DNA of 64,000 nt, from positions 186,001 to 250,000 of the forward strand of contig NADL03000010.1 in the NCBI GenBank assembly GCA_002205965.3, read 5' to 3'. The position numbers and the translations under genes were made by a program. The notes below the pieces were generated by a model. It saw only the letters and a program-made list of their open reading frames with translations. It did no database searches and was not told where the DNA came from. Source of the stretch: Kappaphycus alvarezii (Eukaryota; Rhodophyta; Florideophyceae; Gigartinales; Solieriaceae). Positions within the stretch are counted from its first letter, which is position 1. Each line of letters begins with the position of its first letter. Shown here piece by piece: positions 6,701 to 64,000 of the stretch.

Positions 6701-8346
6701 CTAATACTTGAATGTATTTGCGCTTGTAGCAACGCAAGGTGCACCGATAGGACGATACAGTGAGCCATACTTCTGAACGATTGCGCATGCATTGAGAAGA
6801 GCGCTCATGAATGCGCCCTCATTCCATCCTCCCGCGCCTAAAATATCCTCAGAGTTGATGTAGACACAATGTCTTTCCTTGTTCTTGAGGCGGTCCCAAT
6901 AGTACATGATTCCTTGATACCCTCTATAAAATCTGGCGACCGGTTGTAGAAGTCGGTGAGCGAAAGGGTTTCCTCGGGCCATTTAATACCAACCACCTCT
7001 TCGATGTTTGCCAGCATGGTTTTCCATACTGCTTCATACTTGTGTCCACCAACGATTTCTCTTATGTCTTCAATGCAAACGTCAACGACTTCCTGTAAAG
7101 ACATATCTGCCATCTTCGAGTAACTATCCTCCCAACCATACCACAAAAGAACAACACGAAAGTTCGGGTTTGTGGCAGGAAGTATGTATACTTTTTGAGT
7201 TCTTTTGTCAGAAGGAAGCATCCGTCGGAAATCCGGATTATTAACTTCAGGGACTTTTGTGACCTTGACGCGAGCAAACACCTTACCCGACAAGCCCCCA
7301 TCAATGCTCTTCATCGTATCTATAATTTCAGGACGATAAACTTTGATAGACCGCTTATCTTGCAAGCGGCGGGTAACGTGGTGCCAATAACCACATCACT
7401 AAAAGAATGATAACCGTCGCGCCCACGAACGTATACCCTAATCGTCTTCTTCGACTTGTCTAACCTCACCACCTTTTTGTTGAGCCGGATCGACACGCCG
7501 TAGCTTTCCGCTGCTTTACCGAGTGCTTGAACGAATTCTTCAGCCGAAACAGGCACAACACTTCCATGTTTCCCTCGCTTAGACAAACTCCTTTGCTTGT
7601 CCTCGAAGCCATTGACAATCATTCTCATGATTATGTGGATTGCCTTGTTGAAGTAAACTCCATATCCCCGCGCCCGACACCGAGGGTTCCGAAGACGTCA
7701 AGATCTTCATCATTCCAATGTGGGAAGAGTTCGCAAAATGCTTGCTTAATTGTTTTTCCTTTCATCCAATCCAACCAACCCTGGATATCATCAGAAGCGT
7801 CTAACCCCTTTTGGAGCTTGAAGCGAATGTCGGCCCAAGAAACCAATCCACCCCAACCCTCTTCCACAAATTTATCCAGGTCGTCCCTAATCGGCTTGAT
7901 CATTGCAGGAGCATCTTTGCCCCCTTTCCAATCGACCTGAGTACTCTTAAACGAAAATAACGTGTGTGCTACGCTCGGGTCTGGAAAATCATCACGTAAG
8001 TCCATCTTGAGCGCGACTGCAATCTCCCCGAACAATGCTTGGCCGCGGCAAAACGCATCATCCCCATATGGACTTTCGTACCATCACGGAAGGTTTCGCA
8101 AAAGGCACGTCCTGCTAATTTGTCAGCTGCTTCGTAGATTGTTACCGAAGCGCCAGCTCGGGCAAGAAGGATGGAAAGATAAAGGTTGGCCTGGCCACCT
8201 CCTATCAATAGAAAGCTCTTCCCGTTCAAACCATTACCGATTGGAGAGAATACGTGTCCGTGCGAAGTGATCCAATCAGGAAAGTTGCAGTAAGGCGTGT
8301 CCACGTAGGCTTGCCTAATGTACGCGGCTTCACCGGTGGATGACAT
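6701..8346 (-). CDS. Flavin amine oxidase (tryptophan 2-monooxygenase / L-amino-acid oxidase-like), frame-broken
   Basis: Predicted FAD enzyme oxidising an amino acid or amine with oxygen. The ATG at 8346 opens a frame with a dinucleotide-binding motif at residues 49-54 (GGGQAN) followed by a long helix and an acidic residue (E72) that would bind the FAD ribose, then a DKLAGRAF second-arginine motif. A GVGRGGYG stretch, a VVIGTT strand and the C-terminal GGWNEGAF flavin-contact motif follow, in the order seen in IaaM-type enzymes. The frame is lost four times (near 8035, 7668, 7375 and 6930); each time one extra T or G in an existing run restores it. The restored length is 549 codons, about that of bacterial IaaM. 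Oddities: the third glycine of the FAD motif is Asn, and the gene sits alone between repeat tracts without the pyrimidine-rich leader of its neighbours. Substrate cannot be read from sequence; bacterial-type ancestry is inference. Confidence 0.8.
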
Positions 8347-8479
8347 ATTGAAGCTTAAAGGGAATATATGTCTTAGCGGATAACAGTCTCGATAGGGAAT
8401 TTCTCTAATACTGGGACGAAAACAAGTGGATGCAATGACCGAAAAAGTAGCTAAGACGAAATCAGTTGATCACACGCGA

Positions 8480-8487
8480 TATTTATA
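8480..8487 (-). promoter_or_regulatory. TATA box of the amine oxidase gene
   Basis: The minus strand reads TATAAATA, a consensus TATA box, about 135 bases upstream of the ATG at 8346. This leaves room for a leader of roughly 100 bases. No other gene start is nearby. Confidence 0.5.
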
Positions 8488-8498
8488 GACCTGTAGCA

Positions 8499-8536
8499 CC
8501 CGCTCTCAAGCGGGAGCTAGCTTGCGAGCGGGAGCT
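8499..8536. repeat. Hairpin and repeated GCGGGAGCT upstream of the TATA box
   Basis: CCCGCT and AGCGGG (8499-8514) form a perfect 6-base hairpin around CTCA. GCGGGAGCT occurs at 8510-8518 and again at 8528-8536. The site lies just upstream of the predicted TATA box, so it is a candidate upstream element of the amine oxidase promoter (inference). Confidence 0.4.
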
Positions 8537-8539
8537 GTA

Positions 8540-11500: not shown

Positions 11501-11560
11501 CCACCGTAGAGGAAAAACTGCGGCAAGGTGACAAGTTGTGATTTGCAGGCAGTTGCCGTA
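8540..11560. other. Gene-poor AT-rich stretch
   Basis: Several open frames of 60-90 codons occur on both strands (the longest on the plus strand at 10718-10987), but none shows a domain, a second supporting exon or a compositional shift. I see no element ends. Treated as unannotated intergenic or repeat-derived DNA. Confidence 0.45.
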
Positions 11561-11564
11561 ACTT

Positions 11565-12260
11565 ACTGCGCTTTACAGTACATTGGTAATTTGTTTTGTA
11601 AATTGCAGTAAGTTGCCTTTACTCACTTCACTTTACAGTGGCATTGAGCCGGCCCTGTAAGAAATTTTACAGTATTTACTGTAACCCAGTAACCACTTCT
11701 CCTGCGCAATGCACTCCCAGCCTGGTGGATGCATTACAAAAGACCACATGTTCCATACAGTAAAAGAACCCAAAAATTCCCCCTTTACAGTGTAATGTAC
11801 TACATTACAATCTGGTCAACTGTTGCTGTAGATGTGATTTTGTCCGGGTAGCCAAACATTTGGGCAGCACATGGACCATCCAGTTGGTTTGTACTGTGTG
11901 TGCAACACTTTTGTTGCAACACTACGAAGTCACAACAATTCTAATCTGCACGGTCGTACAGGATATCCTGCATTAGATATTGTACCATAGAAGTATGGTA
12001 TCCTACGGTACTACTGTAGAATCGTATCCGGCCGTGGATACTGTACCATTACAGTAGAACTATGGTATCCTACGGTACTGTCCATCTGCTTTGGATACCA
12101 CAGAAAGTATGTACTACCTGTACTGTACAGTATGCATTTGCCGTAAACTACGTGCAGTGCAGTACTGTACTGTACAGTACAATATCATTTTCGGCGCTTT
12201 ACCGCTCAGCCGAGTCAACTGTTCTACTGCACTACAGTATGTTCACAATAGCGAATGTGT
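11565..12260. promoter_or_regulatory. Cluster of TACTGTACAGTA-type palindromes
   Basis: Exact TACTGTACAGTA occurs at 12121-12132 and 12168-12179, with many half or near copies (TTTACAGTA, TACTGTA, GTACTGTAC) from about 11570 onward. A 12-base word should be present far less than once in 64 kb by chance. The density around non-coding DNA next to C-rich leader-like sequence suggests a promoter-associated element or a repeat family. No gene start could be assigned to it. Confidence 0.5.
11976..12079 (+). repeat. Local duplication of a TATGGTATCCTACGGTACT block
   Basis: TATGGTATCCTACGGTACT occurs at 11994-12012 and at 12061-12079, each preceded by a GATA(T/C)TGTACCAT string. The pair looks like a degenerate duplication of about 40 bases with a period near 67, inside the palindrome cluster. 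Confidence 0.6.
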
Positions 12261-13555: not shown

Positions 13556-13561
13556 CATTGC

Positions 13562-14079
13562 TTAAATTTTGTCGAGCTTCGACGCGACAACGACCGGGTT
13601 TTGCTTTGCCAACTGCTGCCGACCCGAGTCCTTGTAGTTATAATCGCAGTCATGTTGGTCCTCGAACCGATGGTTGGCACAAAAGACATAGCCGCAATGA
13701 CACTTGAATCCGGTAAGGCCAACCTTTTTTCGACACACAAAGCAACGCGACGGATTCTTTTGAACCTTCCTCTCCTTGGGCGCATCGGCTGCAGCGGCGG
13801 TAGTATCGGGAGGAGACAAACCGGCAATGGTAGAGGAACTCGAGGTGGGAACGTTAATGAGGAAGAGGAAGGAAGGGGAAGAGGGTCGGAGGTGGAGGCG
13901 GAAGGTGAAGATTGCGGGGAGGAAGGGTTAGGGGAAGTGGGAAGGGCTTTTTGGTTCTCCCGGTAACACTTGGAGCACATGTTGAGAGTGGACGGGGAAC
14001 CGTAAAAGCCACAACCGGTAGAACAAAGGAGGGAGGAGGGGGTGTCTTGGATCGAATCGCCTGGTTGCTTGTCCGGCAT
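13562..14079 (-). CDS. A20/AN1 zinc-finger stress-associated protein
   Basis: The ATG at 14079 opens MPDKQPGDS, followed by an A20 finger with cysteines at residues 19, 23, 35 and 38 (C-x3-C-x11-C-x2-C). A Ser/Pro/Thr-rich linker leads to a C-terminal AN1 finger (C-x2-C-x10-C-x-C-x4-C-x2-H-x5-H-x-C) and the family-typical ending [12 protein letters not shown]. Proteins of this layout (plant SAPs, animal ZFAND5/6) bind ubiquitin through A20 and act in stress responses and protein turnover. One base is missing in the Ser-rich linker, between about 13815 and 13875, so the two fingers lie in different frames; adding one base gives 172 residues, a normal family size. No intron is needed. The upstream DNA is strongly pyrimidine-rich on the sense strand. 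Orthology to one named SAP cannot be decided. Confidence 0.9.
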
Positions 14080-14775
14080 TGTGGAGGAAAGAGTACAAAC
14101 GGGACGACGGGTATAGTACGAGTACAACACTTGCCAAAAGTTGGAAGGACAAAGGACTAGAGGGCCGGAGAAGAGGGAGAGCAATTGGGAAAAGAAAGGT
14201 TACGAGAGGAAAAAGGTGAGGGAAGGGTGGTTAGGGTTAGGGTGGGTGGCGGCTGTGGGTGGTGCGGATAGGTGAGGAAGGTTGGGTTGCGGAAGAAGTG
14301 TGTGTGGATGTCAAAGGTGGTGGCGAGGATGGGGCGGTGAGGAGAGCGAAAAACGTTGAGTGTTGGGAAGCGGAGAGGACAATATATGGAAGCAAAAAGT
14401 AGGAGGTATAGATAGGGCGACAAACAAAAAGTCAAACGCCGAAAGTTGATGAGTGGGCAAGGATTAGGGGGAAAGAGGGACGGGTCGAGGAAGAGTGGTG
14501 GACGTGGGGTTGGGTAGAAATAGGAAAGGCCGGCAAAAAGTGTAGTAGGGAGGAAGGACGTGTTTGGGTGGGGATGAGTTGGGTCGGGTCGGGTCGGGTC
14601 GGGTCAAGCGGGGTTATGAGGGATGGGGTGAAACGAAGCGAAAGGAGGGAAACGGAGAAAAAAAGGAAAAAATAAAGGGGAGGACGTCTGGGCAGAGGGG
14701 TGGAGCGAGGCGGAGGGGCGACAGATGGAGGGCAAAAGTGGAACAAGTGAACGGTGACAATGTGAAAGCAGGCCG
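14080..14775 (-). promoter_or_regulatory. Pyrimidine-rich leader/promoter tract of the zinc-finger gene
   Basis: For about 700 bases upstream of the start codon the minus (sense) strand is nearly all C and T with scattered A. The tract ends close to a TACTGTAGTGCACTGTGCACTG stretch near 14803-14825. It probably covers the 5' UTR and core promoter. Similar tracts precede the formin, the gene at 57.2 kb and the deubiquitinase. Confidence 0.45.
14581..14605 (+). repeat. (GGGTC)5 microsatellite
   Basis: Five perfect GGGTC units. Four or more G3 runs with 2-base loops meet the usual definition of a G-quadruplex-forming sequence on the plus strand, which is the template strand of the zinc-finger gene. 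Confidence 0.8.
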
Positions 14776-14825
14776 GTGACGGTCGGGTGTAGGTGTGTTG
14801 AAATACTGTAGTGCACTGTGCACTG

Positions 14826-15998: not shown

Positions 15999-15999
15999 T

Positions 16000-18048
16000 T
16001 CACAGCTCCAGATCCACCACGACATCATTTCCGGTAGCTCTTGCTTCCGCCTTTGCCGCCGCCTTACGTTGACGTGCACCCTGCTCCTCAGCACGTTTCA
16101 GACCAGAAACAACATCATTTCCAAATTCTCGCAACATTCTCAGAATATCCTCTTGTCGGCCCCTAGACATCTTGTTCCTCTCTCCAAAGTGTTGCATCAT
16201 GCTCTGCAATTTTGCATCATCAGTCCTCTTAGCGACACAATCTCCTCTCGAACCTTCACTGCCTCTTCCGCAAACACTTCCATCTCCTCCTTGAACGCAG
16301 CCAGAGTCGGGTCATCCCCGATCTGCTTAATTTGCTCCGACACATTCGTCACGCTTTCCAGCAATGCCTGTACCTCTTCTCCAATCGCTTCAAGCGACAA
16401 TTCCTTGGATCGCTCCAGCGTCGGCATGTCATCAATTGGTAGCAATCCTGCGTGGTCCCTCTCCAACATGTAAACCAGGTAGTCTAGCAATGTATTCCCC
16501 TTGGCGTCCTTCACAGTACTCAGCATAGCCAAGCCTCCAACTTGAATCCATGTGCTCCACCGCGTCCAGTTCCCGAGTTGAGGAAATTCCCTAGCGCCAA
16601 AATCGCCTCCAATACTCGGTTCAATTTTTCAGAATTCATCACTTCCACAGGAATCATTGCAAACGTGTCCATGTTCCTGATCACCTCCACTGCCTCGTCA
16701 TTAAAAGTCTTAGCTGCCAGTGCACACAAAATCTTTCCTCTCAAACCCTTGAGGTCTGCCAAATCCATCATAAACGCATCTGTCGGTCCACTTCGTTCCG
16801 AATATTCGCATTCTGCACAAGCAGCATCTCCTCTTCTGCGTTGGACACACCAGTAGCAATGCCTGCAACGTTCCCGGCTCCATCTGCTTGTACGTCGGAA
16901 CCCTCACCACATCCTTAATATTGTCCGCACTCATCTTCAAATTCGCCAGCAAAATGTTCACGTTATGCTTCCTCTTGTGCGGCAACACTTCCGGTCTTAC
17001 CTCCTGTGCCGCAATCTGGAATCGTTCCACCACATCCACACCGAACAAGTCATCAATCTCCTCCTCGTCCAACCTCACATTGCCCTCATCCAACGTCGGC
17101 CACATCGATGTCTTGACCAAATTCATGGGCACCTTTGCCCAATGCAAAGGCTTCTTCTGCCTACCTCTAGCCGCATTATCCTTCCCAGCAATATTGCCCA
17201 CTGGAGCCTTGGGAGGTAACGGAGCACCAGCCGGCGGCGGGGCGCCTGGAGTTTCTGCGCAGTGCTCCCGACAGCAGTATTACTCTCCTGATTCTTCCTC
17301 GCCGCCGCGGCAGCCGCGGCTGCACCTCCCAATCCTGGTCCCTCGCCGCCTGCGCCACCTCCACCCCGACCACCACCACCCGGCCCAGCGCCACCACCAG
17401 GTCCTCCACCAGAACCAGGCCCAAATCCAGGACCATTACCACCATCTCCAGGTCCCATACCCGGTCCACCGCCACCACCAGGTCCATATCCACCACCACC
17501 TCCACCACCACCGCCCGGTCCGGCGCCACCGCCCAATGCACCCTCTGCATATGCCTCTGGAATGGTGACCATTTCGCCACCCTTGGTTCGAGCACCCTTG
17601 GACTTGGAATCAACACCGATCCACGCAGTAATAATGTTTCCATCCTTGTCTACACCGGCGACAACCTTACGACGCCTACCGCGCCCCAACGGCCCTACCT
17701 GTCGCTGTTTTACGGCATAACGAGCAGGATCTATGTAGAACCCAAACTGCCCGCGCTCAAAACGGACTATAGACACGAAAAGCGTGTAGAATTCATGCAG
17801 AAATCAAATTGTGAGGATGGGGATTTGCACACAGGGAAACAAGGAGCATTGTCAGCGGGGCGAAGAGATTGACAGCGAGGCGAGGGACACAAGTGGACTG
17901 GGGAGTATCGGTGGGAAGGGAACACAAGAGGGAGGATGGGAAGACGGAGGAACGTACCAAACTCATGGGCCATGCTCTGGAGTCGAGCAAGGACGTCCGG
18001 ACCGAGACGATCCTCGAGTTTTGACCTTGCATCATATTTGCGAGACAT
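16000..18048 (-). CDS. Formin (FH2 actin nucleator), two exons, frame-broken
   Basis: Formins nucleate and elongate unbranched actin filaments as FH2 dimers. Exon 1 (18048-17958) encodes 30 residues from ATG (MSRKYDARSK). After a 191-nt intron the frame continues VRFERGQFGFYIDP. Next come a basic stretch, a glycine-rich region (about residues 108-187), a short proline run (APPPAGAPLPPKAP) and the FH2 domain from about residue 235 (KKPLHWAKVP, later LGNFLNSGT and GNTLLDYLV) to about 600. A charged helical tail ends in VVVDLEL. Five one-base deletions break the frame, near 17263, 16863, 16787, 16530 and 16231. Adding one base at each gives 620 residues. The usual proline-rich profilin-binding FH1 is nearly absent and replaced by glycine. 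No N-terminal GBD/FH3, PTEN-C2 or transmembrane segment is seen, so membrane or Rho-type control is not evident. Confidence 0.9.
17767..17957 (-). other. Spliceosomal intron of the formin gene
   Basis: The donor reads G|GTACGT after GAGTTT and the acceptor reads CTATAG|TCCG. Splicing joins GAG TTT G to TC CGT TTT and keeps the frame in phase 1. The intron is 191 nt and lies only 91 nt into the coding sequence. The two exons cannot be read through without it because of stops and a frame change. Confidence 0.7.
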
Positions 18049-18250
18049 GATGAAGGCGGACGGTAAAGCTGGGGCGCGAGGGAAGGGGTCGGGAGAGGAA
18101 GGGGACTTTGTGGCGAATGTGAAGGACTTTGGTGAAGACGGGGGAGGGGAAGGGAGGTGGCAACTGGGTTAAAGGGAATGTGGTTGGAGGTGGAGAGGAC
18201 GGAAGGGGGGTAGGGGCGTTGGTGGGAGGCGGGCTTTGAACGTAGGTGAT
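18049..18250 (-). promoter_or_regulatory. Pyrimidine-rich leader of the formin gene
   Basis: The sense (minus) strand is dominated by C and T for about 200 bases upstream of the ATG. It resembles the tracts upstream of the zinc finger, the gene at 57.2 kb and the deubiquitinase. Confidence 0.4.
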
Positions 18251-18721
18251 GGGAAAGATTTGGTAAATAAAGTGGGTAGTTTGGCGGTGGGACGGAAATA
18301 CAGTAGAAAGTAGCGTTGATGTCAACAGTTTTTTTTTGAAGTACGGTATTGTAAAAAAAAAGAAATATTTAAATTTTGATCAAATGTTTACGGTTTTAGG
18401 AATGGCACTTTTAGCAGAGTGCGGTTTGACCCTTGAAGCGTTAGCATGTCTGGCTACAAGACATGCGGCACCCCCAGTTGGGATCATACTGTAATCCAAA
18501 AGTGTAAGATTGACAACAAATCCAAGTAGGACAAGTGGAATCATACGCTACTTGGGTGAACCGGATTGGATATAGAGTAGAGGCACGGAACGGCGCTGCG
18601 TGGCAGTGAGGAGGGCATAGGTGGGCACGGTTGAAAACGAGCCAATAATAAAGTCGCAAGTGGTTCGGTTCCACCAACATGGCTGATCACTGCTGCACTA
18701 CCCACCACTCAACCGTGTATC

Positions 18722-21090: not shown

Positions 21091-21135
21091 AACATATCCT
21101 ATTCTCAGCATTGCCACTCGGGAAAAAATCGACTC

Positions 21136-22180: not shown

Positions 22181-22189
22181 TCTGGGGTA

Positions 22190-26557: not shown

Positions 26558-28328
26558 ATGTCATTCAGCAGGTCTTCACGAAGCTCAGCACTACCGTCTC
26601 CCCACTCAAGGTATTCTTTGTCTTCATCTCCGGAGCACAGTAGCCCGAAAAAACCTTCATGACCTCCCCGAAAACTCGATGGCTAAAGCATGTGTCCACA
26701 AAAGATGATCAGCGAAGGATCGTACAGTGGATGGTGGCAGGGCATGCTAGGAGTGGCCCAAAACATCTGGATTCAAAAGCGTTCAGGCAGTTTCCCTCCC
26801 TTTTCTGTGACTCGCAGAAAGCAAATTTACAGAAAGCCGGCGATTGGTGGGACGAATAGGATTCTATTCTGAGCAGAGAGCTCGAGAACCCCAAATATAT
26901 TTCTACACGCCAGGTTTGGACTCGACGAGTTGTTTGCACCACAGCAGCTCAGAGGCAGGTGACCAAAAAAAGCTGAATGGATAGATTTTCACCACTTTCA
27001 GCTCCTCGAGGAATTTGAACGTCTGAAATGTGCAGGGGTTTCAGTTTGACACGAATCTTCTGTTTGTTATTGCTGAGAAATTTCTGGAAAAATCCGAAGA
27101 TAAATTTACCGGAGAGTATTTGGATCCCGAAGACAGCAATCTTAAAATGGAAAAAGTTAAATTGAAGTGGATTCAAACTTTCATGGAGCGCTTCAACATT
27201 TTTCTTAGAGCCGCTTCAGGAAAGGGAGCACTAAGTCCTGCGAAAAGTGAACAAATTAAGAGATTAGTGGCGTACGATCTGGGAGCAACCAGAAGGGCTT
27301 TGGACGCAAATTTACTCGACGCGAACTTGGTGGAGAATATTGACGAAACACATTTTGTTATTAACATGTCGAATAGAAGGAAGTTGGGCTTCATTGGCGA
27401 CAAGAATACCAGTGTTGCAGAGGTCTTGAATGGTGGTGAATGTATGAAAATGATGGTGCCCATAACTGGAGGCCAGATCGCAATGGTTGCTCCGCCTTTC
27501 ATGGTATTCAAGAACACAGATCGAAACTATCCCCTCCACAACTGCCCTGAAAACGTTACAGGAGTGAGTTATCATACCTCTCCGAAGGCGTTTGTAGATC
27601 TTGCTGTTTTTGCGGAGCAATTTGCTGAAAGAAGAGCTCAATACCGTTCGGCGAGAAGCACATGTGAACGAGTTATTTTACTCGACAACTATTCTGGGCA
27701 TGAATCCACACCGGAACTGATTGCTGCTTCATTTTCATGCCAAGCTAAGCTGCGGTTCTTGCCACCCAATTAAACGCATCTTGTGCAACCTGCTAATTCT
27801 GTCATCATCGCAAAGATTAAGGAATATTGGACAAGAAAAATGGAATGAGAAAAGATGCAGATCATCGAGGAAAACGGATTTCAGGATCGATTGCGCCGTG
27901 ATTGGGCGTGGCCAGGAAAGCTTCCTCAACCAGGGCGAAAGTTCTTCTTGAAGCTTGCAGCGGATTCTGTGAGAGCAGTGAACGGTCATGGGGACAAAGA
28001 AGGTCAGGGGGACAGAAATGGTGCAAGCTATGCGAGGAAGGCTATGGTTCAATGCGGGCGATCTAGAGATATGGATGGAGTTTGTAAAGTTTCACAGCTA
28101 CGCGCGAGCTTCAGAGAATGTGCCCTAAGTACAGAGATCACTTCGAAGCAGCAGTTGTGGTGCGCATATCCGCACAAGACCCTCCGAAGCTGCATTAGCA
28201 TCCAGATCCTCCTCTTCTCGAGATGCACCATCTTGCGCAGGTCGCTGATAGTGAGGTGGACGAAACTTGTCGGAAAGGGAAATTACGATACATTTCTTCT
28301 CTTCTCTCTTTTTTGCACAGAATCATAG
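26558..28328 (+). pseudogene. Pogo/jerky-like DDE transposase, inactivated
   Basis: A likely start is the ATG at 26558 (Ser-rich N-terminus). The frame around 26659-26859 shows a helix-turn-helix-like segment (RRIVQWMVAGH) and the FPSLF...KAGDWW stretch. The core from 27030 carries VENIDETHF (first Asp), a GGQIAMVAPPFMVF strand and VILLDNYSGHE (second Asp), followed by LPPN. Then a TAA stop (27771-27773) interrupts the conserved PPN-x-THLVQP motif, and the third catalytic residue expected in QPADS is Asn (AAT at 27795). A second in-frame stop, TGA, lies at 27846. The same frame continues to 28328 with GKLPQPGRKFFLKLAAD. Frame changes also separate the N-terminal pieces. The two in-frame stops and the lost third acid cannot be repaired by adding single bases, so this copy is truly dead. 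Confidence 0.8.
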
Positions 28329-32808: not shown

Positions 32809-33113
32809 GACTTTTGTGTCAAAAACTATTAGAAGGTGACCGAGACTAGTGTATTTGTCATTTATTGAACTGCGCATTAGAATAGGCATCTATCAACACT
32901 CTTGATCCCGCGAAGTGAAGGAATACCGATTTTAGGCATTTAATAAAGAATGTTAAGAGCGTTGTTAACCACGTTAGCAAGAGCCACGCCATGAGAGTTA
33001 AATTTTAGGACTTAAATTTACCTCTGTGTGGTACGCGTTTAAAACTGATATCTGACATGCCGTACAGATGTCTAGGGACTATGCGTTTGTTACAGATTTT
33101 TTTTAGTAATTCG

Positions 33114-33357
33114 TGTAAAGATGACCGCAGGATGGGTTCTACAGTGTTGCAAGCTTGTTCCTTTTGAACCTGTTATTTTTAATTAATCTACGACGATTTC
33201 AAAATTCCGGGTGACGACGCTGATAATGAATAAAACGGTGTCCATGGCCGGTTGGAGTCCGAACTCTTTCCGGCCGCCATTGTCTTGTTTGCAGAACTTT
33301 CTTGCCGCGCTATGTCCTTCTGAAGGCCTTTCTGCAGACGAGAAGTGCAACGACACT
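33114..33357 (+). repeat. 5' LTR of copia element 1
   Basis: Shares TGACCGCAGGATGG, CTACGACGATTTCAAAATT, GGTGACGACGCTGATAAT and CCGAACTCTTTCCGGCCGCCATT with the 3' LTR. It lacks about 34 bases present in the 3' copy (between GCCGCGCT and GAAGGCCTTTCTGCA). Confidence 0.8.
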
Positions 33358-34679: not shown

Positions 34680-37600
34680 ATGTCGCAACACAGCCCTGCC
34701 GTTAGCAGCGATGTTCCCAAGTTCATTGGAAACTTATCCGACCAGGAACTATCGTCCCTCATTAGCGCGAATAAATGACTTTTTTGTCACTATTCGATCC
34801 TTAGACCCGGACCTCAGTGGTACTTACCTCAAAGAGATATTGGCAGAAGTCTCTTCCCTCCCGCGAGCCTTTTCGCAAAAGAAATCTGCGATCTTCCATC
34901 GGTCTGGGTCGAACTGCGCAATTTACTCAACGTTAGGGGTGCCATAATACAACAACATTCATCGCGTCGCGTTATCATGACCCTTGCAAACGGCATCTAC
35001 GACGACGCCGAGGATAGGACGCTGCAGTGCAAATGGCACAAATTATCGTAGAGCAGTGGTCGTAAGGTGCGTTCTGACTTACAAGATCAGACCCCTATCA
35101 TCATTGAAACTACCGATTCCGGTAGTAATCACGGCGGCAGTGGCAGCAGGTTAGCCCATGACATTGCAATGAGGCTTAAGGACTCGGATAAGGAATTCTC
35201 TGGAGACCCCGGTAAGTGTTGGATGTGTTACGTCGACGAGTACTTGTAGGTAGCTAGGGACTACGGGCTGAGTCCCAAAAGAGAAGCTGCAGTACATTCA
35301 CAACTTGCTGTCAAAAGACGCGAAGCGCTTCTACCTTGCCGAAGTGGAAAAATTTGTTCAGAGCTTTCAACAGGCCGTCGACATGATAAACCGGGAGTGC
35401 AACTCTCCTGTTAGGTAGACTAGAGTGAAGAACCACCTGAACACCGTGAGGGTAACTGGGGTTGTCAAAGGGGGGCAGGAAGTTCCATCTGCACTGGCTC
35501 GGGTGTACAAGCATATCACCGAGTTGTCACAGAAAGTTACAAAATCACATCGCGGGACTCCTATAATATCTAGTTCCTTAGAAATGCAACCTTCGGGTAC
35601 TCATGGACTTGTGAACCGCTTAGTCGAGTTGCAACACATAATTTAACGTTCCAGATGCTTAACGGTGAACTTGAAGCTGTTCTGCAGCTGGACAAGGAAG
35701 CTAAACTCGCGCCGCAACGATATGGTGCGCTTCTACAAAGGATCCCGCAATTTGAAGAGCACCTCGGTGTTCACTTCGCAGGACAGGGTCGGTACAAGTA
35801 CAACCCAAGGAAGGTGCGAAAGTGCGGTAATGGTACAGGGCGGCAAAGGTTTAATCCACTGGATATTGTGGGTTATTTTAACTGTGGAGACCTCGACCAC
35901 ATGCTGAAGGACTGCAGGAAACCATTCAATGCGTCAAATGCCGGTGCGAAAAAACTCGAGCACTATAATCGCAAGGACTCGGGGAATCATACCGTACACT
36001 TGGTGCTTGCAGACCTTTTTAAGCAGCTGGACGGCCTTTCGTGCGACAATGATGCAAGGGACGACGATCAACCTGAACGTGACGACCTTGAAATCTTCCA
36101 AGCGGCATAGCAAGGTGATATGCATGTAAAGGAGTCAGGTGAACCTTCTAGTAGCCTTCCTGGGATTATTCCAGAAGTCGACTCGGACACAAGCGAAACA
36201 TTTGTGATGACCTCGTCTTGGGAAAATCCCACACCCAGACACTTCGAAGGATCATGCGTAGACTCCAGGGCTCAAAAGACTGTAATTGGCAAACCTCATG
36301 CGCAGGCCTACTGCTCCCTCCTTAATACGGATCTGTCGAATGTAGTTAAAGGAATGAAGCGTACTTCCACATTGGGGAAGCTATACATAAGGGAATCGGT
36401 AGTATCTTAGTAAGGATCCCAGTCTCTAAGAGTTTCTTTCCGTCATTCAATGCCGATGTCGTCGAAGTTGAGATCCCAGTGCTCTTAGGCTTGGGTCCTT
36501 TGACGCGAACGCGACTCATATTGGATTTCCTCGACGACGCTATCCACGCAAAATCAGATGGCTGGAAACTTCCTTTGATGCGGAAGCGCGGTCATGTCTA
36601 TATGGAGTAGCCTGTTAGAATATTCTTTACAGCTAGGGAGTTAAAGAAGATCCACCGTCACTTCCATCACCCGCATCCCGGTAAGTTCCAAGCCGTCATG
36701 CGTAGAGCAAACCCCGAGTCAACGTCACTAAAGCTACTGGCCGATCTCGAGGACATCGTTGCGACTTGTGAGGTATTTCAGCGCGAAGGCGACGGACCTC
36801 ATGGGTTCAAAGTGTCACTGCCGCACGGAGACTGCGTGTTCAATCGCACCGTATCTTTGGACCTTATGAAGATCAAAAATAATACCATGCTGCACGTAGT
36901 AGAAAAGGATACGAAGTTTGGTGCGGCAGGTTTCCTAGATAGCAGGTCAACGGCTGAGACCTAGAACGCATTCATGCGCATTTGGGTGTCTACTTACGTC
37001 GGGTTCCCAGATAACATTTCAGTAGATCAGGAGCCCCATTTCGACTCACTGGAATGGAAGAATCGTTTGCAAGCAGCTGAGATATCAGAAAAACCACCCG
37101 GAGTAGAGAGTCACAATGCACTAGGCGCATGTGAACGTTATCATTCCCAACTTCGACGAATTTATGGAAAATTCACTGCCGAGGACTCTCCCGTTGGCCA
37201 CCATGTTGCTCTTCAACTTACTGTGAAGGCATCTAACGACACAGCCGGACCATTAGGTCTTGTCCCAACACTCTTGGTCTTTGGTATCCTACCGCGCATC
37301 CCGCTTATACCCAAGGGCCTTCCCGACCATAACAGTCGCATGAGGGCACTTATCGAGGCTTGCAAGGAGATGAAAAAATATCGCACAGTGCGAGAGTAAG
37401 CACGGCGCTCAGAATCAATGTCCCTGCAGCTGATGTGACATATGCCAGGAGGAATGAAGGGCTCATGAAAAGGGAATAGCCAGTTGGGAAATGGGTCGGG
37501 CCATTTGTGATACGAGATGTGAAAGGAAAACTTCTTACGCTCTACAGCGGCGACCTTCATATTCGTGCGTCAGTTGACAAGGTTAAGACGTACAGAGAGA

Positions 37601-39366: not shown

Positions 39367-39415
39367 CAGTGGATAGTTCGACCGTAACAAGCTCTAAACA
39401 TCGAAAATACGGGAG

Positions 39416-39694
39416 TGTAATGATGACCGCAGGATGGATTCTACAGTGTTGCTCGCTTGTTCCTTTTGAACCCGTCAGTTTTAATTTATCTACGACGATT
39501 TCAAAATTACGGGTGACGACGCTGATAATAAATAAAACGGTATCTTGGCCGGGTGGAGTCCGAACTCTTTCCGGCCGCCATTTTCTTGTTTGCAGAACTT
39601 TCTTGCCGCGCTCTGTTCCGCCGACGGAGAGAGCGCTCCGCGAAGAATCAGGTCTGTCGAAGGCCTTTCTGCAAACGAGAAGTGCAACGAGACT
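39416..39694 (+). repeat. 3' LTR of copia element 1
   Basis: Full-length partner of the LTR at 33114, with roughly ten substitutions over the aligned 190 bases before the 34-base difference. It follows the RNase H end by about 110 bases. Confidence 0.8.
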
Positions 39695-50684: not shown

Positions 50685-50869
50685 AACCGTACTACTGCCT
50701 CGATACAGTGAAGTCAATCGCAGAACTTCCTGAAGCGTAAACTCACAATGAAGTCAGAGCACTGCTAGTCTCGCTCTATCTAAATGACACAAATCATCTG
50801 GACACATTTATAATACATGAAGTAAAGGTGATTACATCTGGACAAGTCCGCGTTTACCGTCTGTCGGTA

Positions 50870-51102
50870 TGAATCTGTTGTAATCATGCTTTGATGATTA
50901 CATATTACGCCCGCTCTCTCTCACATCTTCAATGTGAGTAATTAGCATTTCGTGGCGTCCATTTATATGTTCTATGTTTGACTACTTAAGTTTTTAATTA
51001 TCCTCCCTTCAGTAAACTGAGAAACCAAACGGCCAACCGTGTAATTCGTTTCACTAATCTCTGCTCCTTCTCTCTGGACCCACACATCCTGCATTCTTAG
51101 TT
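50870..51102 (+). repeat. 5' LTR of copia element 2
   Basis: Runs from TGAATCTGTTGTAATCATG to CCTGCATTCTTAGT and contains two perfect hairpins: TGTAATCAT/ATGATTACA (50879-50902) and CTCACAT/ATGTGAG (50920-50938). The termini are not the canonical TG..CA, so the exact right edge is uncertain by a few bases. Confidence 0.8.
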
Positions 51103-55560: not shown

Positions 55561-55579
55561 TAGTCCAAAGAAAGGAGAA

Positions 55580-55804
55580 TGAATCTATTGTAGTCATGCT
55601 TTGATGATTACATATCACGCCCGCTCTCACATCTTCAATGTGAGTAATTAGCATTTCGTGCCGTCCATTATATGTTCTATGTTTGACTACTTTAGTTTGT
55701 TATTATCCTCCCTTCAGTAAACTGAGAATCCAGGCGACCAACCGTGTACTTCGTTTCACTGTTCTCTGCTCTCCTCTTCTGGACCCACACACCCTGCATT
55801 CTTA
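55580..55804 (+). repeat. 3' LTR of copia element 2
   Basis: Matches the 5' LTR from TGAATCTATTG to CTGCATTCTTAGT. It lacks a CTCT unit and has one mismatch in the first hairpin arm. A purine-rich stretch (AAAGAAAGGAGAATGAA) precedes it and is a plausible polypurine primer. Confidence 0.8.
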
Positions 55805-57170
55805 GTCGGCGTATCCTTAGCGACGATACTCTAATACTCCACGCCGTCTTTTCGGGTCTGAACGCTGTTGCTCACATTCTCCATGCAGATTAACAGAGAC
55901 CAGTCCGGCGGTAGTAACACGCTCGACATTCGAACCACGTATTTACCGAGAGCATTGAACAGTGTATGGTCTGCTGCATTAAGAATCCAACACTTGCCTC
56001 GGCCATTTGCACTTTTCGGTGGTTTTTGAGAGGTGGGGTGGCGCCAGAATATCAGCGTTTGGAGGGTACCGAGCATCTGGGCCAGCAACCGTCACAGCAT
56101 TGATCCAAAAGAGGCATGATAAATTTTCGCCGCGAATTATCTGCAGGTTCAGCCTTTTTTCGTCACACCATTACAAACGTCGTATCGTCAAGCTCCAGTA
56201 GGTCGAAATATTTTCGGCAATTTAATGCGTGTGCACCTCCGCCAACCGATGGAATCCGCTAAGCTGTAGGGCCCCAGGACTTTTACAGTGAGCATGTTGT
56301 CAGATGTCATTCCAGATTGCCAAGAGCTGGTTGTAAGGGGAAAGGTTTGGTTGTTTTACTCTTGGAAGATATCTCCGGTTGTAAGGGTGACTGTCGAACA
56401 GGTCGGCGATACTGACGGAAAACTGGTCACTGTCAGCGGTCCTTTTTTTGAACTGTTCCCACTTTTAATTGCAACGTTATCATCTTTGACCCCCGCTAAC
56501 TGCAGTGGAGTTGCTGTTGGCGACATTCGCTAACCTCCCAGGGTTTGCCCTCCTGACGCTCAGTAAAAGTGTGTCCTCGCACGGGAACAGCCTGGCACCC
56601 CATACAGTTCTTGCCTATTCTCGTCCAGATATAGTGCAAATACTGCGAACCTTTTACAAACGAGAAACTTTCAATGTAAGAAAACTACGCAGCTGTGAAC
56701 GAGAAAGGCAGTTTGGCACGCAAATTCAGAGATAAAATCTCGATATCGCTTCTGCCGCTCACGCGACCCACTTCACCCGTTCCTCGCAAAAGTAGAAACC
56801 ACCGTTTCTACATGGGACAAAATGTGTGGAAGACTGCAACACTCCCTGCTCAAGCACCCGTACCATCATCCGAGACACAAACTTGATTCCACACTGCATT
56901 CTAAACGAGGCGAAATCGAGGCGCAACGGCCCGCATTTACTCAGAGTTGACCGCCACACCCGTGACCAACTAACAACGCCAGCGGTTCATCATCCACAAC
57001 CCCTCGTCCCGCCTCATGCGCTGCAAATCCAACCCCCCAACCCCGCCTCACCGAAACCGGCAGACTCTCTGCCAATCCAAAAACAGCACTACATAACAAT
57101 TCAAAAAAAATATTAGCTCCCCCTGCCCCCTCTGCCATTCAAAAACCCCCAATCCTCAACGCACCCCAAA
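55805..57170. other. Intergenic stretch right of copia element 2
   Basis: Short frames at 55831-56088 (-) and 56288-56533 (+) have no recognised domain. The region 56960-57130 is C-rich on the plus strand. The right end is the 3' flank of the gene at 57175. Confidence 0.4.
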
Positions 57171-57174
57171 CCCA

Positions 57175-57765
57175 TCAAAAGTCGGCCGGCAAGCCACAAG
57201 CAGCGCTGAGATACTTGAGTGCGTTGATAACATCGTTCGCATTATGACACAGGCCGAGCGGCCATTCCAGACGCTCCTGCACACACACGCATTGCGACTC
57301 ATCGCATGACACGATATCGGCGGTGAAGCCCATGGCGTCCACGGCAGTCATGCGTACGTTTGCCAGCTGCGAAAGGTCATCCTGTTTGACAAACAGTAGG
57401 TGAAGACAGACGGAAAGCGGACCAGAGAGACACACGCGCACATGGAGATAGTCGAGTCAGTAAACCACATCACCAGCCAACAAACCATGCCACCCAGGGA
57501 TTTCGCGCGTGCAAAAGGTGGTCAAAGAGAAGCAGCACGAGGCAACGTACGAATTTGTTTCCAAAGGTGACGATGTAATTGGCAAGGTCCTTTAAACGTT
57601 CGGTGTTCATAAAGTCACAGACTGCGGCGCTAATGGCGGCGACTTCTGCAATGTCCGGGACGATGGAGTCGGAGGTTTGGGTTTGCGCAGTGGGTTGTGC
57701 TTGTGGGGCGACGTGGTCGAGGTTGACGGGGTGTTGTTGCGGACGGGACGTGAGACGATGGCCAT
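57175..57765 (-). CDS. Unidentified two-exon protein
   Basis: I do not recognise the family. The ATG at 57765 starts MAIVSRPV. One missing base near 57745 would carry the frame into a Gln/Pro-rich stretch and then a well-behaved helical segment (SIVPDIAEVAAISAAVCDF, ERLKDLANYIVTFGNKF). A 169-nt GT-AG intron (57550-57382) joins this to DDLSQLANVRMTAVDAMGF, a Cys-containing stretch (SCDESQCVCVQERLEW) and the end ACGLPADF. With the inferred base the exons are 216 and 207 nt, giving 140 residues. Evidence for a real gene: in-frame splicing, codon-like composition and the same pyrimidine-rich leader as its neighbours. No signal peptide or membrane segment. The small size and helix content would fit a complex subunit, which is speculation. 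Confidence 0.55.
57382..57550 (-). other. Intron of the unidentified gene
   Basis: The donor is TTC|GTACGT and the acceptor CAAACAG|GATGAC. It is 169 nt in phase 0. The donor hexamer GTACGT is identical to that of the formin intron. Confidence 0.6.
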
Positions 57766-58090
57766 GCGGGTGGGGAGGGGGGTTGGGTGGGGTTGGGGAC
57801 GGGGGTGTGGAGGGGGTGGAGGATGTGTGGAGGGGATTTTGAGAGGGGGAAAGTGGGGGTTGCAAAGGGACATTGTTGGGGTGGGTTGTGGGTGGAGGTG
57901 GAGGTGGAAGTTGGGTTGGGCGGTGTTGGGGAGATGGAAGTTGAGATTGGGACAGGACAAGTTAGGGGAGCGGGAGACGGGTGGGGGGTTTAAATGCGGA
58001 TGGAATAGAGGGTGCAGGTGCAACGTCGAAGGTAAGGTTGGGATTTTTTTTGGAGGTATTGAGAGGTGAGGAGGAGATATGAGGACGAAG
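57766..58090 (-). promoter_or_regulatory. Pyrimidine-rich leader of the unidentified gene
   Basis: The sense (minus) strand is almost free of G for about 300 bases upstream of the ATG. The open frames across it on both strands reflect composition only. Confidence 0.4.
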
Positions 58091-58094
58091 AGAC

Positions 58095-59520
58095 GTGTGG
58101 ACGGCGGGGCATGATTGGTTGATGTGTAGCCATGGCGGTGGAACAACTAATGATTGGTGGAAAATGCAAAGCTCTCTTTTTAGGACAGCTGTGCAAACAC
58201 CATTTGAAGAAGGCGTTTATACACTTCCGCCACCATATCAACCACATTCACTGTCCTCTCAGAAGGCATGGGTTGGCAGATATTTAACGACAGTCGGGAA
58301 AGATGATTGCATCGGTCGTATGGTTTCATAGTTGTTTGTGGGTGGCAAGGGCGTGAGACTTACCCCTGACTGCATTGTTCAGGGTGACAGCTATTATACC
58401 GCGGCGCTTTTTAGCAGCACGTGAAATCTCAATAGGAGATAAGCTTGCTTATGTGAGAGCATTGGTGTCAAAACGCAGATCATCTGTACACAGCGCAATC
58501 CATGGCCGAGGATTTGAGATAGAAATCAGATTGACATATGCTAGGCACTGCAACCTCGCATGGCCTTTTGACGACTAAAGATGAGAGTGTGTCAGGCACA
58601 AGCACACACTTCTTGCCCAACTTTTGTTCTTTCATTTGCAAAAGTTTGTTTCAGCGAGATATCTATACGTGCTTCTAGAACAATCCTTTAGAGTATGCCC
58701 TGTTTATCTTACCACCTCTTCAAATCTTCGTACCGAGAAAGCCAGATTATCCTCTACCCGCAGTGTACCTGATTTTGTAAAACTCAACTAGTCTGCACAC
58801 GTAAATCCCTTCTACTCGATGCCCCACTCTATGCAAAAGTGTCAAATCCCGTGAAAACCAGTGCGTAACAAAACCAAGAAAAAACATCCAGGAAAACAGC
58901 ACTGACTGCCCTCCACCGATGATTTGCCACCGTTCAATACAAGACGGTACATCCACCCCGCCCGCCCCTACATCCTCAACCAAGCCCATTATTTCCAACA
59001 CCACCCGAACCCCCAAAACGGCCACAACACCCATGTACACCCGTGCTGCACAACCACGTCCACACACTACAACCCATTTCCTATGCCCAGTGCACGCGCC
59101 CTACAATGGGGGCCCGCCGAAATCATATGTGCAAAGCGGTGTGCCGTCACTAGAGGCCTGCAATCTGCGTTTTGCCCTTGCGGTGTGACAATGCGATGGG
59201 TAGCGTGTGGCACTTGCGTTGCCGAGCCGCGTGCTGTCTTGCCATGCGGCCCGGCCGGCCTGTATGGATTCGGGATGCAGGGCCAATGCCGGGTGGAATG
59301 GGCTTGTCGCGGGCTACTCGTCCTCCGTCGGTAGAGCTGATCTGCTGGCCTGATCTACAGAGCTGATCTGGTCGTATCAACTGGATCTCTACTGGATCAG
59401 CGGTGAAATGGATCACAACCTCACCATCAATATGAGTGAGGGTTTGAGTTGCAAATTTTGTCGAGGGGCAAATTGCAACTATTGACCAGTGAGACATCGT
59501 CCTGATTATACTTTACAGTA
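58095..59520. other. Intergenic stretch between divergent genes
   Basis: No recognised gene. A C-rich segment lies at 58940-59100. A TTTACAGTAACTGTAA string at about 59513-59528 resembles the palindromes found near other leaders. Confidence 0.4.
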
Positions 59521-59639
59521 ACTGTAATTGGGAACATATACAAGTGTACGAGTTGTGATTGTTTTGCAAGCCTCTTCAGAACCTGCTATGGAGCGTTGTG
59601 AAAAACAGATGCCACGAGCGAAACGAAAAGCTAGTCACC

Positions 59640-60160
59640 GCTCATTTTCTCCTCCTCGCCATCGTCTCGGTGCAATTTCCCCCGTCGTCATCTCGGCCCA
59701 ATTTCCCGTCCATCACCCCTCCGATATCTATTACTTCAACTCATTCCCCTTCCCCGTTCTTTTCTCTCTATTTTTACATCCACATCCCATCGCCGTAATC
59801 CGCCCTTCGATTTACTTCGATATACCCCTCGTCTTGACTGGAATCCATCCATCTTCCAGCTTTCACTCTTCCGAATCCAACATCACCCAACCCAAAACCA
59901 TTCAATTCAATCGCACATTCACAATACCACCTCCCCACACAAAACAACCCTTCACACTTGATCCTCAACCTCGGAACACACCCGTCACCCGTACCATCAC
60001 TCGCCACTTTCCATACCTTTCTCCCCCTCTCCCCGCTCTCCTTTACACCCCCACGCGCCCCCTTCGCCCTGGACATGATCTTCGCAACCCACTAGGTCCC
60101 TCCCTCCCATTCTTGTCACTCCTTTTCAACATCCCATCACCCTTCCACTTTCGCAAGTCG
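59640..60160 (+). promoter_or_regulatory. Pyrimidine-rich leader/promoter of the deubiquitinase
   Basis: The plus strand is strongly enriched in C and T (for example CTCCTCCTCGCC, CTTTCTCCCCCTCTCC) up to the ATG at 60161. This matches the sense-strand tracts of three other host genes. The long open frame through it (from 59528) does not begin the protein; homology starts at 60161. Confidence 0.45.
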
Positions 60161-61606
60161 ATGGGTTCCGTCAATTCGACCGGAAACAAACTCGAAAAGG
60201 CCCTCGCCGCAGATCTCCCGGAAGACGAGCGATATTTCGGTCTCGAAAATTTGGCAACACCTGCTATTGCAACTCTGTTCTTCAAGCACTCTACTTCTGT
60301 GAACCCTTTCGCAAGGCTATTCTCGATTACGCGGGTTTTCGTCGCTCGGCGAAACAATTACTGCCTCCAGAAAAAAATGACCGTCTCTTGCAAAACTCCG
60401 CCCCTTCAAGCACAACCCTGGCGGGTCTCACTGGTGCTCCGGGCTCTGCACCACCACCACTTCCAATCCCGCCTTTCTTTCGTCTGCGTCACCCGCTCCA
60501 ACAATGAACGGCACATTGAAGAGTACCATGAAAGGCGTTATCAACTTTGGCTCCACCAGTTTGTCATCGGGTTTGGGCGCCTCCACCTTGACCGCAAACC
60601 ATTCAACCTCTGTTGACACTGACAAGGTACCCGTGTCCACCGAGGAAACCATGTTGACCGCATTGGCCGATTTGTTCACGCAAATAGCCACTCAGAAAAA
60701 GCGCACCGGATCAGTACCCCCCAAATCATTTGTCAACAAGTTGCGACAGAAGAGTGACATGTTCTCCAGCTACATGCACCAGGATGCCCATGAGTTTCTC
60801 AATTTTATCTTGAATGATGTCGTGGAATGCCTCAGGTCAGAGGAGAAGGACAGGCTGCAACGAAAGCGCGCGTTGAAGATGAGAGAGAGTTATCAACAGA
60901 ATGGCACCGATATCAATGGCAAAGCACTGCAGAACGGTGTAATCGTCGGAGCGCATCGTGATAGGGACGATGTGTCGACAGAGACGTTGCGGACGTTTGT
61001 ACATGAGTTGTTTGAGGGTCAGTTGTCAAATGAGGTGCGCTGTTTATGCTGCGAGACGGTGACGCGAAGAGTGGAATCCTTTTTTGATCTAAGCGTCGAC
61101 GTAGAGCAAAACTCGTCGCTCACCTCTTGCCTTCGCAGCTTTTCGTCAACGGAATTGCTTGAGAAACAGGACAAGTTTTTCTGTGATGCTTGTTGCTCGT
61201 TACAGGAGGCAGAGCGGCGAATGCGGGTGAAAAGGCTGCCGAGAATCCTGGCCTTGCATCTCAAGAGATTCAAGTATGTGGAACAATTGGGCAAGTTCAA
61301 GAAACTTAGTTATAGGGTGGTGTTTCCTTTAGAGTTGCGGTTGTGTAACACTATGATGACGCTGAGGATCCGGATAGGCTGTATGCGCTTTTTGCTGTGG
61401 TTGTGCATGTTGGATCAGGTCCAAACCAGGGACATTACGTTGCATTGATCAAGTCTCACGGGCAATGGCTAATGTTTGACGACGACTGTGTTGAACCAAA
61501 AGATGAAAGTGAGATTCAAAGCGTCTACGGAGTAACGCAAGATAATGCGCAAAGCACCGAGGCGGGGTACATACTGTTCTATGAGCAAAAGTCTGCCAAT
61601 ACATAA
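60161..61606 (+). CDS. USP12/46-type ubiquitin carboxyl-terminal hydrolase, frame-broken
   Basis: Cysteine protease that removes ubiquitin from proteins; in animals and fungi this subfamily is activated by WD-repeat partners (WDR48/WDR20 type). From [15 protein letters not shown] the protein reaches [15 protein letters not shown], whose first Cys (residue 35) is the nucleophile. Then come a Ser/Pro/Thr-rich insert, [29 protein letters not shown], a zinc ribbon (RCLCCET and FCDACCS), [40 protein letters not shown] (His about 426) and [10 protein letters not shown] (Asp about 442). Three one-base deletions (near 60253 GG, 60479 TTT and 61351) break the frame; the first restores GNTCYC exactly. 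The restored length is 482 residues. Compared with human USP46 it has roughly 100 extra residues between the Cys box and the ALADLF motif. Convergent with the PreP gene, 225 bases apart. Confidence 0.92.
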
Positions 61607-61831
61607 ATCGTTTTGACTCGGAAGCTTCAAGTACATCCAGCATGGTAAGCAGTGGGGCGGTATTCCGCAGCTCTCCGGTGGTACAACCTCATTTCATCAA
61701 GAGCCAACTGATTTAACTTTTCAGACTCGCTTTCTGCACAGAATCTCCTCTAACATGCTTCCCTTTACACTTTTGCTGACGCCTAGGGCAGTAGGATGAC
61801 GAAATCGCTGATTGCTGTACTTGAAATCGTT
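61607..61831. other. Short spacer between convergent stop codons
   Basis: 225 bases hold the 3' ends of both genes, so their transcripts probably overlap or terminate very close together. No strong hairpin seen. Confidence 0.5.
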
Positions 61832-64000
61832 CTAAACCACAGTCTCAAGCTCCAGTTCTAGACCTTCGCTGTTCGCCTTTTTCAACGCATCTTCGCCACC
61901 AACAACCACAACGGTACCTTGCTCGCGTACTGCTGCGAGTGCTTCACCTAACTCCCTAAAGTCCTTCACACCTGCGCCCAAAACTTGGTCACGCCGTTCC
62001 TGGCGGATCTCGTCAGTTTCGCCCGTCAAAAACCGAAGCGTGGATGCGAAGCCCTTCGAGTCTGGTAGCTGATACGAGTCTAGAGCCCCAATCATTCCAA
62101 TCACGCTCTTTGTTAGGTCGTCAGCAGACATGTTCACGTTTGCTAAAAAGTCTGGGGCGCCATCGTAGCTTTGTAGAGTTCCAGTGACATTCGGATCCCG
62201 ATAGGATAGATACATGAACATCCCAGTTTTCACATCCAGCCTGCAGAATCCACCATACGCCCCCCTTGCACGCGAACGGTATCCCACAAGTAGGACGTGC
62301 CAAGGTGCTTTGCTGCGAGCGAGTGTCCCCTCTGAGTTTGAAACCCAGGTCGTACAAGTTGGCAGCCTTGCCAACGTAGTTTACCGCAGATGGGACAATG
62401 AGGCCTTCGTTTTGGCGTTTGAGTGAGGTGGGTGCCAGAATCCAACCTGCAGTCTCACCAGGCGGCTTTTCAGGTAGTCGGTCCAGGAAGGAAGCGAGGA
62501 CAGGCCTGACAGTCTTAAAGTCAGAGCCCGTGGTCGTGACATTCACGAGCATGCTTTCACGAGAGACCACAAGCTGCTGAATTGTGCGCAGATCCGCAGC
62601 AACCGACTCCCAATTGCTCTCCACTCTGTCAATAAGCACCGGACAGCTTTCAGAAAGTCTACACCACCCATTTGCTCGTCTGCCCACCCCGTTCTTCGGA
62701 ACATCCCAAAGAGTCGCCCGCCGGCAACAGTATGACCACTTCCCGCAATTCCCGATCGATGCCCGCACGCTCCTCGATGAGCAGCTGACGCACGCGCTCC
62801 TTGTTGTTGATGTCGACATCAGTGAGGATATCGCCCAAGAGGTCAAACAGCGAATCCACTTGCGACAGCATGCACTTTCCGCGCACAGCCAATTTAGCAA
62901 GGGCCGGGCCATTCCCGTCCGGTGCGTACAGCTGACTGATGAGAGTAGACCGCGAATCCCGCCAGTTTCTGCTCCAATCCTCTGTTGCAGGGATGCAAAG
63001 TCCTGCTTGCTGGTGCCGAGCTCAGTCAGTGATCCCGAAAAATTGACATCAGCGGCAACAAATGATTCGGTACACGGGACATGTCAAGCGCCATGTCCAC
63101 ATACACAACGCCGCTAGTATTCAGCGGATGATGCAAGATAGTTACTCCCTTGTCATCCACTCTTTCATAGGCGACGGTGCGTATCTTCTTATCCAAGTCG
63201 TCGCGGGTGAGAGTGGAATCTTCGCAGGTCCTTTGGATCATCGTGCGCCGCCTGCTGCGCTTTGAGACGCTGTGTTTCAGAGATGATATTGTCATAGTCC
63301 TTCTCGGAAAACCCGCTCGTTGCGGCGGCAATTCGGGCCTGCTCTGCAGCGTCTTCCTTCTTTGAAAACTCTGGATCCGGTTTTAGGGTCACCAGCGCCC
63401 GATGCTGATTTCTCAATATATACTTTGACACACACTCCTGAAAGACAGGTTCATTCCGGGCCAACCTCGCTCTGAGGTTTCCCACGGCGTTTTCAAACTT
63501 GAGCGGAACGAGGGGATCGGCATCGTGCAACCAGGTACCATGGACCTCAGCATCAGAGAAAGGCCTTTCGGAATGACCCGGTGTTGTTCTCGCGCAAACG
63601 AAACTCAATCGTGTTTAGGCTCGCATCGACCATGCCCTTGTCAAATCCGTTCTTCTCTATATCTTTCAAGACGCTGAAAACCAGTTGCTCCATCTTTTTG
63701 ACGGCATCTTCAGTCATACCCTTCAGTCCTACCGAAAACATCATTTGCCTCAAATCAGTCTCCAAGCCACCGCCGACCACATCCTCGCCCAATTGCGAGT
63801 CTGTCAAGGCCTTTCTCAGAGGTGATGCCGACATGCTTAGCAAAATATGGTTTAACACTGACAACGTCAACAACTCTTCCGGATCTATCTCATCGACCGG
63901 CGGGTTAATAAGCCAATTCACAGTAGCCATATACTTTTTCGCCAACTCATTCCCCGAGCCTGCATCATACGTAAACTCAAATTCCCTGGGACGAGTCCAC
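61832..64000 (-). CDS. Presequence protease PreP (peptidase M16C), 3' part, frame-broken
   Basis: Zinc metallopeptidase that degrades cleaved targeting peptides and other short peptides in mitochondria and, in plants, plastids. The 5' end lies outside the window, so the HxxEH zinc site and transit peptide cannot be checked. The visible part begins RPREFEFTYDAGSGNE and runs through SMSASPLRKALTDSQLGE, FRLRENNTGSF, the coiled linker (EKDYDNIISETQRLKAQQ), HLLPLMSIF..LTELGT, QQRIGAETGGI, ADEQMGG, VNYVGKAANLYDLGF, GGAYGGFCRLDVKTGMFMYLSYRDPN and DSYQLPDSKGFASTLRFLTG. It ends VVVVGGEDALKKAN..ETVV. About ten one-base deletions break the frame, near 63570, 63538, two near 63220, 63036, 62915, 62740, 62641, 62328 and 62262. 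Nearly all are in base runs (for example six C at 62260-62265 where seven are needed). About 725 of an expected 1,000 residues are present. Confidence 0.92.

Follow-up and report, generated by a model that had tools for sequence, protein, structure and literature searches.

Two described systems come close to a gene that cannot be read in a single frame. In Physarum mitochondria, the genomic sequence is short of single bases that the product needs, and insertional editing supplies them at even spacing, mostly as C, whereas in Euplotes, pervasive programmed frameshifting, with +1 shifts at stop-codon motifs, yields many same-direction frame changes across genes. Here, we describe a pattern that resembles both in these respects, namely, 23 frame breaks in five recognised genes of a 64,000-nt stretch of Kappaphycus alvarezii DNA from contig NADL03000010.1 (hereafter, the window). 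Unlike in Physarum, the genes involved are of nuclear type, two genes of the window contain likely introns, and the breaks are irregularly spaced in varied contexts; unlike in Euplotes, the frame change belongs to the opposite class, and no motif shared by the breaks was found. Judging from the sequence, the best explanation, and a highly probable one, is that the breaks are residual one-base deletion errors in an under-polished long-read consensus, and they are almost certainly not a real biological feature.

Such errors have been described in small genomes. A nanopore assembly of an Elizabethkingia isolate polished with Racon plus Medaka retained 7,891 deletions, 1,114 insertions and 566 mismatches, systematic insertions and deletions (indels) caused reading-frame shifts, and the Racon-Medaka assemblies carried many excess pseudogenes (PMC8011154); in one long-read assembly, false deletions made up the majority of indels and were linked to runs two to eight bases long, a small share falling at non-repeated bases (PMC12007338). 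The present breaks are like the errors described there in that one-base false deletions dominate some of those assemblies and frames are broken; in those errors, short runs are often but not always involved. They differ in that no insertion is needed among the 23 breaks and that enrichment in homopolymers is only weakly visible; moreover, the genomes covered there are bacterial (PMC8011154) or small (PMC12007338), and some of the assemblies are dominated by insertions.

Frame breaks in the recognised genes

The open pieces of the window were searched separately and unjoined against Pfam and PDB. Every gene recognised by these matches is broken, none being spared, and within each, successive parts of one protein sit in differing reading frames. 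The window contains no N. The five genes, together with a likely intron in one of them, are the following:

6704..8346, minus strand: flavin-containing amine oxidase gene, 4 frame breaks, 549 residues counted across the breaks
13565..14079, minus strand: A20/AN1 zinc-finger protein gene, 1 frame break, between both fingers, 172 residues
16003..18048, minus strand: FH2 formin gene, 5 frame breaks and one likely GT-AG intron, 620 residues when spliced
17767..17957, minus strand: likely formin intron, 191 bases, donor GTACGTTCC, acceptor CTATAG, splice sites picked by eye
60161..61603, plus strand: USP12/46-like ubiquitin hydrolase (USP) gene, 3 frame breaks, 482 residues
61835..63999, minus strand: 3' part of a presequence protease (PreP, M16C) gene, 10 frame breaks, running off the window edge

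Three pieces of the amine oxidase gene match PF01593, and the first also matches PF13450, whereas the zf-A20 and zf-AN1 matches of the zinc-finger gene lie in frames one base apart. In formin, positions 11-129, 144-229 and 230-340 of PF02181 fall in three separate pieces, and PDB formins are matched as well; in USP, positions 6-37, 46-183 and 193-254 of PF00443 are distributed across three frames, the closest solved chain being USP46 (6jlq). The ordered pieces of PreP match 2fge, PF05193, PF08367 and PF22516, with 2fge, which the PDB lists as 'zinc metalloprotease (insulinase family)', as the closest solved relative, which we take to be Arabidopsis PreP. The piece at 63029-63382 matches PF08367, yet it has no PDB match at E 0.001, and the database search gave no PreP match for the piece at 63416-63604, which probably holds the short link between breaks 1 and 2 and presumably resembles plant PreP. 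Catalytic or metal-binding motifs were found in the pieces, namely, what we take to be the Cys and His boxes of USP, the cysteines of A20 and AN1, and the FH2 core. On the FH1 side of formin, at about 17300-17550 on the minus strand, the frame of the piece at 17126-17803 encodes a long glycine/proline-glycine tract rather than a plain polyproline FH1.

In total, there are 23 breaks in 7,621 coding bases, or one per 331, close to the one per 340 given in the preliminary description, whose gene-by-gene counts (4, 1, 5, 3 and about 10 for amine oxidase, A20/AN1, formin, USP and PreP, respectively) are reproduced by the frame path. The breaks are spread homogeneously over the five unrelated genes (chi-square 2.7, p 0.61). 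The formin frame change at 17767-17957 is set apart because it is likely due to an intron and not to a deletion, and both the count of 5 and the length of 620 residues agree with the intron removed; formin breaks are numbered here in a posterior-placement series in which number 1 is this intron. It had also been pointed out that the restored lengths are exact multiples of three: the lengths of 549, 172, 620 (spliced) and 482 residues are recovered, but their divisibility is true by construction because the number of repairs was chosen.

The direction of the breaks was assessed by comparing the DNA distance with the reference distance between neighbouring matches at 13 places; for PreP 8 and A20, only the frame change was used. 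Homology flanks 11 single-step breaks on both sides (PreP 5-10, formin 5, USP 2 and 3, amine oxidase 3, and A20), and every one of these 11 lacks one base modulo three, a class purity with p 0.0005 under equal odds and 0.02 under 70% odds. The offset is exactly -1 at PreP 5, 7, 9 and 10 and at formin 5, whereas PreP 6, amine oxidase 3, USP 2 and USP 3 are -1 modulo three with length differences of +5, +2, +254 and -13, respectively, so that the true size there may be -4 or +2. Four two-frame steps (two in PreP and one each in formin and amine oxidase) account for 8 further breaks. At three of these steps (PreP 1+2, PreP 3+4 and formin 3+4), the DNA lacks exactly two bases relative to the reference. 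An inserted base would give +1 and is disfavoured there, unless the alignment has a gap at that point; each of the three may, however, be a single two-base deletion. The fourth, amine oxidase 1+2, has an offset of +40 and falls in the class that is two short or one over, but a 150-codon open frame in the third phase lies between its breaks, so that two separate breaks are needed.

Insertions, homopolymers and points against consensus error

Several observations weigh against attributing all breaks to one-base deletion errors. The preliminary description placed single-base deletions in every gene, and although the one-base-short class holds wherever a single step is flanked by homology, 4 of the 23 breaks (amine oxidase 4, formin 2 on the FH1 side, formin 6 at the C-terminus and USP 1 at the Cys box) are matched on one side at most and are placed by open frame, codon usage or local residues. 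A symmetric Viterbi frame caller, which used only codon usage trained on these genes, with equal insertion and deletion penalties and five penalties tried, puts, at penalties of 6 to 10, four insertions into PreP and a single one into USP, and, at penalty 10, one into formin; at penalty 5, it calls three deletions in USP and, in PreP, four deletions plus three insertions. In PMC8011154, a Flye draft is dominated by insertions (14,394 against 439 deletions), as is a P. aeruginosa assembly after Racon and Medaka (704 against 324). If deletions made up 0.876 of the errors, all 23 breaks would be deletions with a probability of 0.048; the set is thus compatible with such errors but somewhat pure. 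The remaining difficulties concern homopolymers. When the number of breaks is fixed, the posteriors confine each one to a 90% interval 26-122 bases wide, giving 24 intervals that include the formin intron and in which USP 1 and 3 are broad and partly off the tight homology brackets. Their mean longest run is 3.67, compared with 3.59 for intervals drawn at random from these genes (38% of the random sets are as high), and a run of at least 4 is present in 11 of the 24, where 11.2 would be expected. Likewise, Markov models trained on the window have the same run-length spectrum as the window itself, in which no truncation is visible. As a gauge, the spectrum was set aside as uninformative, runs of at least 10 being expected only about once under the Markov model.

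Whatever the penalty, the same caller finds deletions alone in amine oxidase, A20 and the small gene at 57 kb; in formin, it does so for penalties 5 to 8. The gene limits used for A20, the 57-kb gene and formin are too wide or hold an intron. Each PreP or USP insertion for which a place is given (penalties 6 and 8) is two -1 steps merged into one +1, and the frame that the caller skips has a match of its own between USP 1 and 2 (Pfam E 1.2e-7), between PreP 7 and 8 (E 1.5e-5) and, weakly, between PreP 9 and 10 (E 0.021). The insertions called in PreP and USP were thus overruled by the matches in the skipped frame and by the -2 offsets at PreP 1+2 and 3+4, and the caller was rejected as a method, being too weak and prone to merge adjacent -1 steps. 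In keeping with the earlier observation that these genes contain no clear insertion, none is needed at any of the 23 breaks.

As the specific mechanism, homopolymer under-calling is plausible, yet this sequence lends it weak support. The breaks had been reported to lie mostly in homopolymers, but the 24 intervals show no such excess, and only seven tight brackets, set by profile ends or local residues, hint at one: their mean longest run is 3.71 versus 2.84 (p 0.012), and a run of 4 or more occurs in 4 of the 7 against 1.25 expected (p 0.018). This excess is a hint and not a test because the brackets were defined after the sequence had been read. That the repair lengthens an existing run at most sites, as also proposed, is close to unfalsifiable at this resolution, given that all 50-base windows of these genes contain a run of at least 2 and 93% a run of at least 3, and that a random one-base insertion equals a neighbour in 43% of cases. 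What stands of the proposed under-calling is an artefact dominated by one-base deletions as the best reading; its tie to homopolymers is weak, two of the seven tight sites (formin at about 16532 and USP at about 61353-61366) lacking a run longer than 2 and the run-length spectrum being untruncated.

Splicing, decay and recoding as alternatives

Small introns taken for deletions could in principle account for several of the breaks, and likely GT-AG introns do exist here, that is, the 191-base intron of formin and one of 169 bases in a further gene:

57178..57736, minus strand: small gene at 57.2 kb, 5' limit approximate, one likely intron, two pieces
57382-57550, minus strand: likely intron of this gene, 169 bases, GT-AG

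Both likely introns begin with GTACGTT, possibly a donor preference of the species. In the 57.2-kb gene, neither piece matched a family in the searches; a single deletion had been postulated there, but the likely intron accounts for one frame change, and the deletion finds no homology to support it. The linker at USP break 2 exceeds the profile by 254 bases, and weak-donor GT-AG pairs number 4 to 35 in each of the seven roomier places (USP 2, A20, amine oxidase 1, 2 and 4, and formin 2 and 6); in none of the seven, however, is there a frame-restoring, stop-free GT-AG pair with a strong donor, and across the five genes, GTACGT occurs in the formin intron alone. Of the 13 bracketed places, 8 fall one or two bases below the reference length, leaving no room for an intron; of the others, one is 13 bases shorter and four are longer (+2, +5, +40 and +254). 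The chance that introns underlie several of the breaks thus appears negligible. Real and recent decay, which would make the genes pseudogenes in a degenerating chromosomal segment, is improbable, too, although sequence does decay in the window, which also holds old, mutated elements resembling long terminal repeat (LTR) elements. One is bounded by terminal repeats of about 203 bases at 33113-33315 and 39415-39616 (plus strand), 92% identical with 15 substitutions and 1 gap, and contains a zinc-knuckle-like piece at 35574-36107 (E 0.015, below the cut-off). A second pair of terminal repeats, about 230 bases long, 4.7 kb apart and 90% identical with 16 substitutions and 4 gap openings, lies at 50869-51101 and 55579-55806 (plus strand). 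Together, the two pairs span 437 alignment columns with 31 substitutions and 5 gap openings, and 4 of the gaps are single-base. The rate of assembly error alone predicts about 2.6 single-base gaps in them, so that, as an error gauge, the pairs are consistent with the error rate but cannot separate error from age. Against decay, the breaks fall in one size class wherever homology decides, and five unrelated genes are struck at the same rate. Furthermore, at the LTR ratio, 23 indels would be accompanied by about 143 substitutions and, with 3.9% of single substitutions in these genes creating a stop, by about 5.6 premature stops; the observed number is zero (P about 0.004), in line with the earlier remark that no premature stop occurs apart from frame loss. 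Among the 2,502 codons counted, which exclude formin exon 1, 0 are in-frame stops, on a path that was chosen to avoid stops and hence favours zero. The stop argument also depends on the ratio, the probability of zero stops being 0.07 at three substitutions per indel.

The uniform direction of the breaks is what would be expected of a single mechanism, such as pervasive -1 ribosomal frameshifting or one-base insertional RNA editing, by which the genes would be read as they stand. We nonetheless regard such recoding as very improbable. There is no k-mer common to all breaks: the widest 4-mers reach 10 of the 23 intervals, 5-mers 5 and 6-mers 4, the three USP intervals having been set by hand in this test as in that for heptamers. 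TCCG, present in 9 of the 23 intervals, is nominally enriched relative to gene sequence outside the intervals (p 3.9e-5, with 242 tested), but intervals placed by codon usage are biased toward rare-codon stretches. Slippery heptamers occur in 2 of the 23 intervals, with 12 occurrences elsewhere in the genes. PreP would require ten serial shifts, which at known frameshift efficiencies leave almost no product, and the spacing of the breaks is irregular (18 to 926 bases between hand-set midpoints, coefficient of variation 0.84). With no stops where about 5.6 would be expected and no signal shared by the breaks, the earlier judgement that decay and frameshift-tolerant translation are far less likely holds. 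Less probable still would be nuclear genes of a eukaryote that truly lack single bases at about three sites per kb, without a simple signal, and have them restored in the transcript or by the ribosome; should the bases be missing in fact, this would be a new nuclear recoding system.

Other features and meaning for annotation

A weak match to the DDE_1 transposase at 27027-27770 (plus strand; E 0.0017, below the curated cut-off) is perhaps a transposon remnant. Long pyrimidine-rich stretches lie upstream of several genes, at 14160-14400 and 57610-58146 on the minus strand and at 59700-60100 on the plus strand; their proline/serine/leucine-rich open frames are probably non-coding. A 72-base unit is present in two imperfect copies at 4752-4887 (plus strand), and the segments 3565-3727 and 4714-4875 are 73% alike. 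Ten more open pieces of the window gave no convincing match in Pfam, and Rfam and tRNA scans of it found nothing. The scarcity of introns in the genes and the plant-like character of PreP would tentatively point to an alga, perhaps a red one. No intact relative was found among viral contigs (searched with two PreP pieces and one USP piece) or genome contigs (searched with the USP piece), searches in which only close relatives would be detectable.

If the breaks are consensus errors, the genes would be intact in the organism and the missing bases would exist in its DNA. The assembled sequence would then have been left short of about one base in 330 by deletions that insufficient polishing did not remove, with a long-read platform as the presumed source of the errors. 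These deletions might have arisen most often at collapsed short runs and sometimes elsewhere.

As an artefact, the pattern matters only for annotation. Software that predicts genes will break up the affected loci or discard them as pseudogenes, and tallies of pseudogenes or gene losses derived from this assembly are not to be trusted.

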